From Crocosphaera watsonii WH 8501 (GTDB taxonomy: Bacteria > Cyanobacteriota > Cyanobacteriia > Cyanobacteriales > Microcystaceae): a stretch of DNA of 40,214 nt. This document shows, piece after piece, positions 148-4,716 of this stretch. How positions within the stretch are numbered: the first letter of the stretch is position 1; the number at the start of each line of letters is the position of its first letter. The notes below the pieces were generated by a model that saw only the letters and a list, made by a program, of their open reading frames with translations, was not told the origin of the DNA and searched no databases. The stretch spans positions 1 through 40,214 of the forward strand of contig NZ_AADV02000014.1 of the NCBI RefSeq assembly GCF_000167195.1. The letters are read 5' to 3'. Both the position numbers and the translations under genes were made by a program.

Positions 148-345
148 TGGGGATCATGTCAGTTAAACCCCTTACGACATTTGGATGGAAAGTGACACAG
201 TACGGAATATTAAGTTAATTAATAAGATATAGTTGTAGTCATTACGAAAATCCTTATATCTTGATTGTATATCTTTTTAGCTGTTTCTTTACTAGAATCA
301 ACATGGAAAGTAACAAAAGTCAGCATATCAATAACATCCTCATTT

Positions 346-394
346 ATTGGACTTTGGACAAAAAAAGTTTGTTAGCGTATATTTTACGCTGAAC
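346..394 (+). repeat. Left terminal inverted repeat of the 2.18-kb IS
   Basis: A 49-bp terminal repeat, 42/49 identical to the reverse complement of 2475-2523. The outer part contains the near-direct repeat TTGGAC-TTTGGA. The inner part (371-394) is itself an imperfect palindrome, TTAGCGTA-N4-TACGCT, the same motif found between the two divergent genes. Confidence 0.8.
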
Positions 395-474
395 TAAAAT
401 CCCAAAATATCGGCTCTGTATCAGTCAATAAAATTGGCTGACAAATAGGGCTAATCTATAGATTCTGAGGAAAA

Positions 475-1913
475 CTAAGGAGCTTTTAAGTTTTTAGTTG
501 ATTTTTTGCTCCCTTTCTTGATAACATCATGACGAGTTCGTGGGGCTTTTTTGTAACCTTTAATACGTCCGGAAGAAAAACCTCGACGTTTGGGAAATTT
601 GGCGAAAGTCCCCAAGGTCGTAATTATTCTTGAAAAGTCTCTTTGAACTAGACTAGGGGTGATTTTGATGGATTTATTAGTCTTCAAATACTGTTCCCAA
701 TCACGGGGTAAAACCACAGCTAATTTTCTGGCAGCCCACAAATTTACATAAGAAAGAAGTGTTAGTTTAAACCAATTTTCTTCATGATGTACATCGGGAG
801 TTAAATAAGATGTCATCAATAATCTTTGTTTACCAAATCGAAAAAGATGTTCCATGTCATAACGTTGTCGATAACACTGATAACAATCAACTAAACTTAA
901 CTCATCGCGCCGAGAACCAATAACAATAAGCCACATAGGTTTCCAAATACTATTTCTTTCTTGATCTCTGACAACAATCTGGAGTAAAGTAAAGGGGTGA
1001 TTGTTCATTTTATAGTTTTTAGTTCCTCTCATTAACATCTGTTTCCATCCCGAAATAGTCACTGTTAATTGACGACCTTTTTTCGTTGTAAAGGGAACAT
1101 GATGAACTTCATCAGGTTCAGTCCAAGTTTGGTCATCTTTAAGGTCAAATTTATCCCCATACCAACGGGGATGTCCCGAAGTTTTGGCTTGATTTGGGTC
1201 CCGAATAAATTGACGATAAAAACTCGGTCACTTCTAACTCTTGTAATAGTAACTAGGTCTTCATGCTTAACTTGTTCCCCAATAAAATCCTTTTGGCTGT
1301 AGTCACTATCAGCCACTAAGACAGATAATTTATCAGAAAATAAAGAACTTTGCCAGATTTTTTTTAGTTGTTGATTGCCTTGATTTACTCCTTTATGTTT
1401 AGAGGGGACTCGCTCTCCTGATAAGGGGACAGCCCAAGGGACTTTTTCTGTGTCTATTTGGTCAGGTAAAGCGCAGACAACGGAATAACAATGTCCAATA
1501 TTAATGGGTTTATTTCCCTTAATTGGATTGGGGTAATGAATAAAGGTTTTATCCGCTAACGTTTCGGCAAACCGTCGTGGACAGGGAGTTGTGTCAATAC
1601 CAAATAAGTTATAATGTTTTGAAGTGGGAGGAATTGTTCTCGATACCGCTGAAAATAAAGTCTCAATTCTCTGTTCATAATTAGGGTCAGTTTGAGTGGG
1701 TAAAAACTCTTGAATTCCTCTATATAAACTGTTATAATCTCTTCTAAATAAAGGATTGAGAGACAATTCAACGACTGAGTGAGCTTGTTGGTTACTGGAG
1801 AGGGCATCGAGTAATTCTATAATAGTTTCTTTTCTAGCTTTTAGTCCTTGGAAGAGGTTAGACCTCCACACCAGGAATTCCTCGACAGACGTAGCCGTTT
1901 CATTTTTGGTCAT
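475..1913 (-). pseudogene. DDE transposase of the 2.18-kb IS, frameshifted
   Basis: Two open frames make up one transposase of about 480 residues. The first (1913 down to about 1215) carries the first catalytic Asp in FGIDTTPCPR and the second in VLVADSDYS. The second, starting upstream of 1062 without a start codon and ending at 475, carries the Glu in RYDMEHLFRFGKQ, the usual IS4-like end of the triad. Continuity breaks at the A5 run 1218-1222: adding one base there joins ...SDRVF to an open frame reading YRQFIRDPNQAKT, while the observed frame drifts into a nonsense tail. This looks like a one-base deletion, so the copy is probably inactive. Start at 1913 is the only ATG before the conserved N-terminus. 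Neighbour: the divergent accessory gene at 1993. Confidence 0.8.
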
Positions 1914-1936
1914 TTTTAAAATTTATTACCTTATAA

Positions 1937-1959
1937 ATTAGCGGAATATATACGCTAAC
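1937..1959. promoter_or_regulatory. Palindromic operator-like site between divergent IS genes
   Basis: This 23-bp imperfect palindrome (TTAGCGGA-N6-TACGCTAA type) lies between the transposase start at 1913 and the accessory start at 1993. Its reverse complement matches the inner part of the left terminal repeat at 19 of 23 positions. A protein that recognises the IS ends would therefore also be expected to sit on this shared promoter region. The binding role is inference. Confidence 0.55.
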
Positions 1960-1992
1960 GTCAAAAGAGGTTGTTTGTTATAGTTAAGGCTA

Positions 1993-2388
1993 ATGTCATC
2001 ACATTCCGAACTTAAGACCAGTCAAGATGTCCACCTGAGAGCCAAACAAATTAAGAGTCTAATTCGCTCTCTTAAACAGAAAATAAAGAAAATTGAACGG
2101 GAAGGGGAAGTAGCACCAGCTAATTGTCATATTATTCGTTATCAGGTTAATGGAAAGGGAACAATCTACTGGTATTATAAACTACAGGCTGCTGAATCAA
2201 TTTTTCCTATGGCCACTAATAATGAGAAAAAAACCAAATATAAATATTTAGGACGAGCCGAAAGTTCTGCTCATATTGATGCTGTAGAAAAACTCACTAG
2301 AAGAAATCTCATTGATGAATTAGAACGAGTCATTCAATCTCTAACTGAAAGCTACTTAGATATCTATATTGGAACCGAAACTGAATGA
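1993..2388 (+). CDS. IS accessory protein, 131 aa, divergent from the transposase
   Basis: A small basic protein of 131 residues lying fully inside the IS boundaries, so it travels with the element. Residues 14-36 (LRAKQIKSLIRSLKQKIKKIER) form a likely basic helix or coiled coil. The middle has aromatic strands with YWYYKLQA near 60 and KYKYLGRA near 85, and the C-terminal half is helical (EKLTRRNLIDELERVIQSL). The YWYYK...KYLG pattern resembles small transposon-associated proteins of the DUF6788 type; this is a resemblance, not a firm call. The start is the first ATG after the shared intergenic region. It may bind the palindromes at both ends and at 1937-1959, acting as regulator or transposition helper (inference). 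Confidence 0.7.
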   Translation: MSSHSELKTSQDVHLRAKQIKSLIRSLKQKIKKIEREGEVAPANCHIIRYQVNGKGTIYWYYKLQAAESIFPMATNNEKKTKYKYLGRAESSAHIDAVEKLTRRNLIDELERVIQSLTESYLDIYIGTETE

Positions 2389-2474
2389 AGCTATTTAATA
2401 TTTAAAATCCCCTAAAAAGATGGAAAGAGAGTTTTTAAAATCACCTTAATTCTCTATTTTAGCTCTGGAGATAT

Positions 2475-2523
2475 GTTTAGCGTAAGATTTACGCTAACAA
2501 TTGTTTTTTATCCAAAGTCCAAT
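2475..2523 (-). repeat. Right terminal inverted repeat of the 2.18-kb IS
   Basis: The mate of 346-394, ungapped, with 42/49 identities. The inner half (2475-2498) is a strong palindrome TTAGCGTA-N6-TACGCTAA, the best of the three copies of this motif in the element. Confidence 0.8.
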
Positions 2524-2959
2524 AATGTTACCTAGAACGATAAAAGTTCCCTCCAGGAATACATCAATAGCGACATTAGCTCCACTTTGTGACAATTGAT
2601 AAACTGCATTGGTCAGTTGAAATACATTGACTCCATCAGTTAAGCTGGCATTACCTGGAGTTGTGACACCAGGGACGTTAAGAAAGTCACTATTGCCAAA
2701 ATCCAGAAAAGGATTTTCAACATCAAGCGGGGGACCAAAAGAAATAATGTCGCTAATATTAGCCGTGTTAAAACTGGTAAAGATTCCTGTCGCAGAGGTA
2801 ATTCCAACAGGAGTTACTGGCTCTGGGTCAAAGTTCAAGTCTATTCCATCACGATTTAATGAAACATTGCTGATACCACCAGGGACCAATACCCCACCAC
2901 TTAGTTGAAATTGACTCGCAGCAGCAGAAGTAGCAGTCATAGTCAGGGTGGCTGCACTA
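2524..2959 (-). pseudogene. Fragment of a PEP-CTERM-type secreted protein, cut at both ends
   Basis: The minus-strand frame codes a low-complexity, Asn/Ser/Thr-rich secreted-type sequence. Its start is the end of a signal peptide (LTMTATSAAAS) followed by a beta-rich region (GISNVSLNRDGIDLNF, SFNTANISDIISFGPP, QLTNAVYQLSQSGANVAIDVFLEGTFI). This is the style of cyanobacterial PEP-CTERM exported proteins. The N-terminus is removed by the IS1380 copy beginning at 2960, which went in within the signal-peptide codons. The C-terminus, including any PEP-CTERM sorting tail, is removed by the 2.18-kb IS ending at 2523. Not functional. The family call is by sequence style and is moderate. Confidence 0.55.
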
Positions 2960-2974
2960 CCCGAATTTCTCACA

Positions 2975-3040
2975 AAATCTGCGATCGCCAAACACAGAAG
3001 CCTTACAGGAAGTGGGTTTGAACAGAGCGATCGCAGATTT
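2975..3040. repeat. 14-bp perfect inverted repeat with HIP1 cores at the IS1380 left end
   Basis: The arms 2975-2988 and 3027-3040 (AAATCTGCGATCGC and its complement) pair perfectly around a 38-base loop. Each arm holds a GCGATCGC HIP1 octamer. The arrangement recurs in copy 2. It lies between the outer end and the transposase promoter, so it could fold in read-through transcripts and shield the start region (inference). Confidence 0.6.
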
Positions 3041-3181
3041 CCCCAACCAACAGTCTGTTGTCAGATTTTAAGTTAAAATCAACCCGAATTAGACAAAGAT
3101 GAAAAGATAAATCAATCACTCATTTTTCCAAAAAAATTATTAATAAAATCTCTAATAGTACTAGATTGTTAGAATAAAATA

Positions 3182-3190
3182 TGCTATAAT
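3182..3190 (+). promoter_or_regulatory. Extended -10 promoter of the IS1380 transposase
   Basis: TGCTATAAT matches the extended -10 consensus TGnTATAAT and lies 35 bases ahead of the transposase ATG. A -35-like TTGTTA is too close (13-base spacer), so the extended -10 is probably what counts. The same sequence is present in copy 2 at 7367-7372. Confidence 0.5.
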
Positions 3191-3225
3191 TTAATTATTA
3201 AAGCAATTTACCTTAAACTAATTTA

Positions 3226-4716
3226 ATGAGTCCCAGTCATCCCCGAACCCCTCGTCAAGTAATCAACTTTAGTAAACAGAAAGGAAAAGAAATAATCGCT
3301 AATTTTGATGGGGGACTAATCACTTCAGATGCGGGGATTGTCTGGATAGCTGAGTTGGATAAAAAACTGGGAATTACCGAGAAGTTTGGTAACTGTTTTC
3401 AAGATCATCGTCATCAATCTTATGTAGATCATTCCGTTCATGAGTTATTAGCACAAAGGCTTTATGGAATTATTTTAGGCTATGAAGATGTCAATGACCA
3501 TGATAAATTACGTCACGATCCTGCCCTTAAGATCGCTTTAGAAAAGCTTAATGAACTTGAAGATAAAAAGGGATGGTTAGCTGGAAAAAGTACAATTAAT
3601 AGATTGGAATATTGTCCTGAGACTATTCTCGACCAAAAAACGAGTCGTTATCATAAAATAGAACCCAACTTTGAAGCCATTGAAAAATCTTTTGTCGAAT
3701 TTTGTTTAGAGTCTTATAAAAAACCTCCCTTAAGTATTATATTAGATATGGATGTCACGGATGAACAAGTACATGGTAATCAAGAAGGGGCATTTTTTAA
3801 TAGTTATTATCACGGAGTATGTTATGCTCCTTTATATATTTTCTGTGGGCATCATTTATTAGTTGCTAAACTTCGTTCATCTAATGTAGATCCAGCCGAT
3901 GGAGCCTTAGACGAATTACAAAGAATTATCGGACTAATTAGAGAAAAATGGTCAGAGACTCATATCCTAGTTAGGGGTGATAGTGCCTATGCCCGTGAAG
4001 AAATCTTCTATTTTTGTGAAAATCAGCCTTTAGTTGATTATGTTATAGCTATGGGAACAAATGGCGTTATTAAGTTACGAGCGGATGATGTAATTGAAAA
4101 AGCCAAACATGAATATGAAAAAAAACTAGCTCCAATAACTGAATTAATGGATAGTTTATTTCAGAAAAAAGAAGATTTAGAAGAAGTTAAAAAATTAGTA
4201 CCAATTTCTACTTGGTATCGCTCTATTCGTTATAAAACAGAAAAGTCATGGAGTTGTCAAAGAAGAGTAGTGACAAAAGTTTGTTATGGAAGTGATGGCT
4301 TAAAAATGCGCCATGTGGTGACATCTTTGCCCGCTTCAAAAATTCCACCCTCAAAACTTTATACAAAAAAATACTGTCCGAGAGGCGAGATGGAAAATCG
4401 GATTAAAGAACAACAATTAGACTTGTTAGCTCATAGAACTTCAACTCAAACATTTCAAAGTAATCAACTAAGATTATGGATACATTCCTGGGCTTATGTT
4501 CTCATAAATGCTTTTCGTCAACACTGTTTTAAAAAAACTTCATTGGCTAAAGCAACTGTGGGAAGAATACGTCTAAATCTTCTTAAGTTGGGAGCCAGAA
4601 TAAAGATTAGTTGTAGAAGAATTATTATCGCTATAGCTAGTGCTTGTCCTTATCCTTATCAAGATATTTTGTCTATTGCTAACAAAAGAATTAAAACTAT
4701 TCCTAATACTGGATAA
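3226..4716 (+). CDS. IS1380-family DDE transposase
   Basis: An intact 496-residue transposase that catalyses cut-and-join of the IS ends. The N-terminus has the family signature NFDGGLITSDAGI. The catalytic Asp residues are seen in IILDMDVTD and in VRGDSAYA, and the Glu in RGEMENRIKEQQLD, the typical IS1380 triad context. Length fits the family. The start is the ATG following a clear extended -10 element; the ribosome-binding site is poor. It is more than 98 percent identical in protein to the broken copy at 7408-8893, indicating recent activity. This copy could supply transposase in trans to the other. Confidence 0.92.
   Translation: MSPSHPRTPRQVINFSKQKGKEIIANFDGGLITSDAGIVWIAELDKKLGITEKFGNCFQDHRHQSYVDHSVHELLAQRLYGIILGYEDVNDHDKLRHDPALKIALEKLNELEDKKGWLAGKSTINRLEYCPETILDQKTSRYHKIEPNFEAIEKSFVEFCLESYKKPPLSIILDMDVTDEQVHGNQEGAFFNSYYHGVCYAPLYIFCGHHLLVAKLRSSNVDPADGALDELQRIIGLIREKWSETHILVRGDSAYAREEIFYFCENQPLVDYVIAMGTNGVIKLRADDVIEKAKHEYEKKLAPITELMDSLFQKKEDLEEVKKLVPISTWYRSIRYKTEKSWSCQRRVVTKVCYGSDGLKMRHVVTSLPASKIPPSKLYTKKYCPRGEMENRIKEQQLDLLAHRTSTQTFQSNQLRLWIHSWAYVLINAFRQHCFKKTSLAKATVGRIRLNLLKLGARIKISCRRIIIAIASACPYPYQDILSIANKRIKTIPNTG

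Follow-up and report, generated by a model that had tools for sequence, protein, structure and literature searches.

The window analysed here, a stretch of 40,214 nucleotides from Crocosphaera watsonii WH 8501 (contig NZ_AADV02000014.1), contains a complete insertion sequence (IS) with an interrupted transposase gene, a divergent accessory gene named acc, and three copies of a 23-bp palindromic dyad (Table 1). An earlier note made from the same letters had recognized an IS at 346–2523; comparison of 30 copies from the same genome upheld a complete element but drew its limits one base further in on each side, at 347–2522 (2,176 bp). The tips of all 30 compared copies were TTGGACTTTGG...CCAAAGTCCAA, a few copies showing single-base variants. 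At least 40 full-length copies at 99–100% identity were present in the genome, counting the one in the window and scoring 40 of 164 candidate matches. The terminal repeats, at 344–394 and 2475–2525, were 51 nt long and 86% complementary, which agrees with the 42 matches in 49 bp reported before. When target-site duplications were looked for, exact flank repeats of 6 bp were seen in two of the 30 copies and of 7 bp in two more, the remaining copies being without a match. The 20-base left flank (window 327–346) was common to the window copy and the copy at locus L009, although their right flanks differed, which suggests recombination between copies or an assembly effect.

The transposase of the IS belongs to NF041680 (IS701-like) with a DDE_5 domain. 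Its frame is interrupted in the window copy, and each of the two pieces alone therefore scored under the whole-protein cut-off; four other copies from the genome, one of which has an internal stop, reached 527.5–533.6 bits, above the cut-off of 440. The 479-codon transposase frame was intact in 15 of 29 copies and the full 131-codon acc frame in 23 of 29, the copy at L017 being left out because the start of acc was not found there.

The three palindromes were found where the earlier note had placed them, and correspond to 23-mers. The pattern TTAGCGTA-N5-TACGCTAA, with up to two mismatches, had exactly three matches in the window, these three dyads, and none in 100 dinucleotide shuffles of it. 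One mismatch each occurs in the left (TACGCTGA) and middle (TTAGCGGA) palindromes. The middle one indeed lies between the start codons of the transposase gene and the 131-residue acc, and was kept with 0–1 changes in all 29 copies from the genome (L017 again left out). Genome-wide, 316 dyad sites were counted at up to one mismatch, vs. none for a reversed-pattern control.

Table 1. Features of the IS in the window (positions of the window) and the transposase types found with Acc (loci numbered L).
Feature	Position or loci	Strand or layout	Basis or remark
Left outer tip TTGGACTTTGGACAAAA, presumed transposase end	347..363	+	Same tip in NF041680 elements L032, L035, L090
Left-end 23-bp dyad GTTAGCGTATATTTTACGCTGAA	371..393		Pattern search and matrix scan
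Transposase C-terminal piece, interrupted, NF041680	475..1062	-	NF041680 positions 259-438, E 3.4e-69
Transposase N-terminal piece, interrupted, NF041680	1065..1913	-	NF041680 E 3.9e-67; PF13546 DDE_5 E 1e-29
Middle 23-bp dyad ATTAGCGGAATATATACGCTAAC, 5' of acc and of transposase gene	1937..1959		Pattern search and matrix scan
Accessory gene acc, 131 aa, basic, pI 9.3	1993..2388	+	Open reading frame; relatives found
Right-end 23-bp dyad TTTAGCGTAAGATTTACGCTAAC	2476..2498		Pattern search and matrix scan
Right outer tip	2506..2522	-	Left tip inverted, one change
NF041680 with Acc	window, L032, L035, L036, L046	acc divergent	
IS4 type NF033592 with Acc	L110, L116, L243	acc divergent	
Tn5-like IS4 type NF033590 with Acc	L247, L248, L249	acc same strand, downstream	
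ISKra4 with Acc	L115, L133, L172, L214, L245, L246, L250; L244	acc same strand, downstream	L244 by annotation
IS701-like type with Acc	L124	acc divergent	Weak matches
DUF6399 protein with Acc	L047	acc divergent	Between perfect 26-bp inverted repeats

A profile search of 386 cyanobacterial genomes detected relatives of the accessory protein, Acc, in 26. Among 72,556 plasmid records there were 38 with a relative, every one of them cyanobacterial by name; none were found in phage records or in two viral-contig scans. An alignment of 14 sequences (A1, two distant rows trimmed) had 11 invariant columns. Searches of Acc against Pfam, NCBIfam, PHROGs, PADLOC and a PDB profile set gave nothing over cut-off, with best E values of 0.032 (PHROGs) and 0.26 (PDB). 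Weak Pfam matches (BssS, DUF2452 and others) were dropped, as each concerned one of the 14 members and lay below cut-off. In the AlphaFold model, which is of moderate confidence, three strands follow a long N-terminal helix and precede a second long helix at the C terminus. The dN/dS ratio was 0.07–0.27 for acc (10 pairs) and 0.20–0.25 for the transposase gene (2 pairs). In many of these comparisons dS was close to saturation, often >1; judged by these ratios, acc is under purifying selection. Five loci (L114, L123, L128, L130 and L131) had an open acc frame with the adjoining IS end and no long transposase frame beside it. Three distant relatives (L127, L120 and L252) had other palindromes on both sides of the gene; at L127 (acc at 3979–4251, acc-forward orientation) GTTAGTGGCGG...CCGCCACTAAC stood both upstream and downstream.

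As anticipated in the earlier note, acc usually stood beside a transposase gene rather than away from one. Two further expectations failed. The gene was not tied to one transposase type but was found with six, namely NF041680 and five more (two IS4 lineages, ISKra4, IS701-like and DUF6399, the last a family of unknown function), and it was not always divergent, being on the transposase strand and downstream in the ISKra4 and Tn5-like IS4 elements. Locus L049 was grouped with L124 by eye and by a shared inverted repeat, without a transposase scan, and L065, which had no Acc match, enters no element table. NF041680 proteins also matched IS701 models and, weakly, IS4 models, and one account assigns ISKra4 to the Mutator superfamily (PMC3942029). 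On these profile matches the partners of Acc are different families, not wholly unrelated proteins. Three of the four IS4 copies in genome G231 had 10-bp flank repeats. The C. watsonii genome itself also holds an ISKra4 element (L214, G000:C314:19990–20790 plus flanks), with a diverged Acc on the transposase strand and a TTCGCG-type dyad at three places.

A comparison of loci found by transposase alone, in three families, separated the dyad from the transposase. Where Acc was nearby, two or more sites were present in 19 of 19 loci; without Acc, any site was present in 4 of 69 and absent from 65. The shuffle control gave 4 matches in 975,780 shuffled bases. These counts are per locus, not per independent event, and the 12 acc-positive IS4 loci came from four genomes; loci from the genome search extend about 1.5 kb past the match, and some acc-negative calls may be truncations. 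Among the four exceptions with sites and no acc, L190 and L242 are probably truncated, L099 had one weaker site (17.3), and the last, L090, is an NF041680 element with a likely nested small inverted-repeat insertion at 3110–3290 (by eye).

The outer tips behaved differently. The GGGAGCATC tip occurred in 6 of 6 ISKra4 loci with Acc and in 14 of 24 without, and NF041680 elements with the same TTGGACTTTGGACAAA tip differed in the dyad core, TTAGCG in the window and TTCGCG in L090; the tip is thus tied to the transposase and the dyad to Acc. Ten NF041680 elements of 1.50–1.56 kb (L080, L081, L083–L085, L088, L089 and L091–L093) share the transposase family of the window IS but have neither acc nor dyad, only inverted tips of 15–22 bp such as CTGGAGTTTAGACTAA. 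By these comparisons the palindromes follow Acc rather than the transposase. The notion that the palindrome is only a transposase site was rejected on the matched control and the tip counts.

The earlier note had proposed one factor for the ends and the promoter site, either the accessory protein or the transposase. A single factor is still the simplest reading, and the comparison points to the accessory protein. Were the transposase the binder, the palindromes would be the inner part of its terminal repeat, and the middle copy would let it repress its own promoter; this would suit the position of the window palindromes inside the 51-nt repeats and beside the transposase start codon, and the end dyads of L090, which has no acc inside. 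We regard it as very improbable, considering that the dyad skeleton accompanies six transposase types and is missing from nearly all acc-less loci of three of them, and that the middle site of ISKra4 and Tn5-like elements follows the transposase stop and precedes acc, a place where an operator is needed by acc alone.

Most elements of the five further transposase types carried the same dyad skeleton. Matrices built from 23-mers hand-picked near acc genes, leaving out one transposase type at a time, were scanned over 13 whole elements, with 60 shuffles each as control. In the window IS the three palindromes were the top three places (21.7, 18.1 and 15.8; best shuffle 15.9, mean maximum 8.1), and the three sites likewise ranked as the top three in all three NF041680 elements (window, L032 and L035), all three NF033592 IS4 elements and the ISKra4 element of G352. 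The remaining three ISKra4 elements had their three sites within the top four, with one intruding match inside the transposase gene. The two sites flanking acc were the top two in both IS701-like elements (L124 and L049; 8.2 to 13.2) and, strongly, in the DUF6399 element L047 (25.5 and 20.0). The strength of this result is in the rank and place of the sites, not in single scores.

The earlier note had named relatives without the middle palindrome as evidence against its proposal. A site 5' of acc was among the top four matches in all 13 elements, weakly in some, and was present in 9 of 10 held-out plasmid loci (L243–L252); decayed copies such as L130, L174 and L175 had none. The held-out loci entered no matrix, several being from transposase families that did, and the type of L247–L249, NF033590, was absent from the matrix. 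Sites were found in 9 of the 10 and three or more in 8, equally at a threshold of 13 or 15, with one extra match beyond the three expected places in each of L244, L245 and L250. At the tenth, L252, where Acc is 25% identical, a different palindrome flanks the gene on either side. The end dyads of those NF041680, IS4 and ISKra4 elements that were measured lay 24–51 bp inside each tip, at a distance that differed between transposase types and was nearly equal at the two ends of an element (24/24, 28/27, 29/25, 49/49, 50/48, 51/48, 44/40 three times, and 30/35).

From the comparative evidence we infer that the dyad is bound by Acc, which would repress its own gene and have a helpful net role at both ends of the IS, as a portable module; the chances for and against this reading appear to us evenly balanced. 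The small basic protein would recognise the 23-bp dyad through a half-site of about RTT(A/C)(G/T)CG. Bound 5' of acc, it would repress acc, the dyad serving as an autoregulatory operator, and in divergent elements such as the window IS the bound middle dyad would also repress the transposase gene. On the inner end dyads, beside the outer terminal repeat of the transposase, Acc may shape or pair the ends for the transposase, and the protein with its sites would have been taken up as a portable module by several transposase families. A dyad stands at the 5' side of each gene in both layouts, which fits repression of both. Two end dyads stand on the 3' side of a gene, the right-end one behind acc and, in divergent elements, the left-end one behind the transposase gene, about 1.5 kb from acc; both are badly placed to serve a promoter of the element and are not explained by repression.

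The main rival is a copy-number brake, in which Acc would bind the dyads, repress both genes and mask or unproductively pair the ends, lowering activity as the copy number rises. Each gene has its own 5' dyad in both layouts, shared in the middle when the genes are divergent and, when they are on the same strand, at the left end for the transposase and in the middle for acc. In all four same-strand elements measured, 31–72 bp separated the end of the left-end dyad from the annotated start of the transposase downstream of it, so that a dyad at an end can double as one at a promoter. The high copy number in C. watsonii is a setting where a brake would matter, and the five loci that keep acc without a long transposase frame are in keeping with it. 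On the other side, end dyads 3' of the genes cannot serve element promoters and yet are kept in several transposase families, and selection among copies would be expected to eliminate a brake that acts in cis on the ends of its own element. The brake is rather unlikely in our estimate, and a helper role in end assembly is somewhat more likely, because sites that only harm their own element should be lost.

Hairpins offer another account, which we judge quite improbable. The palindromes would act as RNA or single-strand hairpins, as terminators or insulators at the ends and as a leader in the middle, with no dedicated protein reading the duplex. The three window palindromes and one ISKra4 site did fold as RNA (-6.3 to -9.5 kcal/mol), and the right palindrome fitted a terminator-like pattern on the + strand. 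Two IS4 sites, however, kept an internal mismatch and folded weakly (-2.5 and -5.1), and a fixed length of 23 bp with a common TT..CG half-site across elements is more than plain hairpins need, which require no conserved sequence. Rfam gave no match at E up to 1 over window positions 300–2600, and terminator-like matches were not above shuffles (1 found, mean 1.8). A function as terminator only was rejected on the shuffle-level matches and the weak IS4 folding.

Several observations weigh against Acc as a dyad-binding helper. The AlphaFold model had a pLDDT of 74.9, with the five models ranging from 37 to 75, and a Foldseek search of the PDB with E up to 0.001 returned no structure; no fold is claimed. 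The matched control includes several copies of one element, as well as elements that supplied matrix sites. The L090 element has both end sites with no acc inside, its genome having Acc elsewhere (L131). Elements without acc exist in the same transposase families, so that acc is no general requirement for transposition. Some matrix scores are low: the left site of the window is marginal alone when set beside the best shuffle, the middle site of the G352 element (10.9) is below it (13.9), the sites of the three other ISKra4 elements (9.8 to 15.9) are mostly not above it (13.7 to 15.9), and those of the IS701-like elements are below it. A site at both ends, as the earlier note described, holds for the window element, but the matrix scan gave no recognisable far-end site in the IS701-like (L124 and L049) and DUF6399 (L047) elements. 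When all pairs were taken together, Acc distance and site distance were correlated (r 0.64, reached by 0 of 5000 permutations), partly reflecting transposase type; across transposase types the correlation was not significant (r 0.11, reached by 1045 of 5000). By position, the left-end dyad of the same-strand elements measured could be an operator, which weakens the helper reading and strengthens the brake, and the right-hand palindrome could double as a terminator.

Beyond the IS, about 0.7 kb away, the window holds an IS1380-family transposase gene at 3226–4716 (PF13701, 5.3e-150). At 2975–3040, two GCGATCGC octamers, which we take to be HIP1-like, lie within a perfect 14-nt inverted repeat.

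Regulators that are encoded by an element and bind the IS ends are already known as a class. InsA of IS1 and the OrfA-type regulators of the IS3 family are small element-encoded proteins that bind IS ends and promoter and control transposition, and the proposed Acc would resemble them in its small size and its end and promoter binding. They are parts of a transposase reading system, whereas acc stands as a gene of its own, opposite in strand to the transposase in the window IS, and is found in either relative orientation with partners from several transposase families. In phage Mu, repressor and transposase share operator binding, while the ends are different sites; its divergent operator-enhancer region links regulation with end synapsis, as may be the case here, but in the present elements one dyad type stands at both ends and 5' of acc. 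The gene tnpB, whose product is an RNA-guided nuclease, is common to IS200/IS605 and IS607 elements and is thus, like acc, an accessory gene carried with different transposases; unlike TnpB, Acc matched no recognised nuclease, and its gene is associated with palindromes. RAYT/REP and IS200/IS605-type elements use a HUH-type Y1 transposase acting on terminal hairpins, in contrast to the DDE_5-type transposase of the window IS, and Acc had no Y1/HUH match in Pfam, NCBIfam or PHROGs. At L244, the transposase next to acc carries the annotation ISKra4-like ISMic1. Extra genes in elements of the ISKra4 family have been described, in an account whose available text speaks neither of a single accessory family that spans transposase families nor of palindromes to match (PMC3942029).

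A search of the open-licence literature, with ISfinder and subscription papers outside its range, found no description of the Acc–dyad module, and one regulator family carried with its sites over several transposase families appears to be new. Taken as a whole, Acc and its dyads may form a transposase-independent control module for IS, a self-regulated end-binding protein shared by six cyanobacterial transposase types, with matching end sites and with TTAGCG and TTCGCG specificities kept apart within one genome; we hold this broader proposal tentatively, at a little below even likelihood. The regulation of IS is usually seen as built into their own transposase. If the proposal is right, a separate DNA-binding gene moving with its matching palindrome between transposase families would be a reusable regulatory part. 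In the held-out loci the 23-bp dyad pointed to IS ends and to the starts of acc, and it is usable for finding such elements, and Acc–site pairs with different cores are available for direct comparison. Such a module, if real, could explain how IS-rich cyanobacteria coordinate the activity of IS ends with gene expression.
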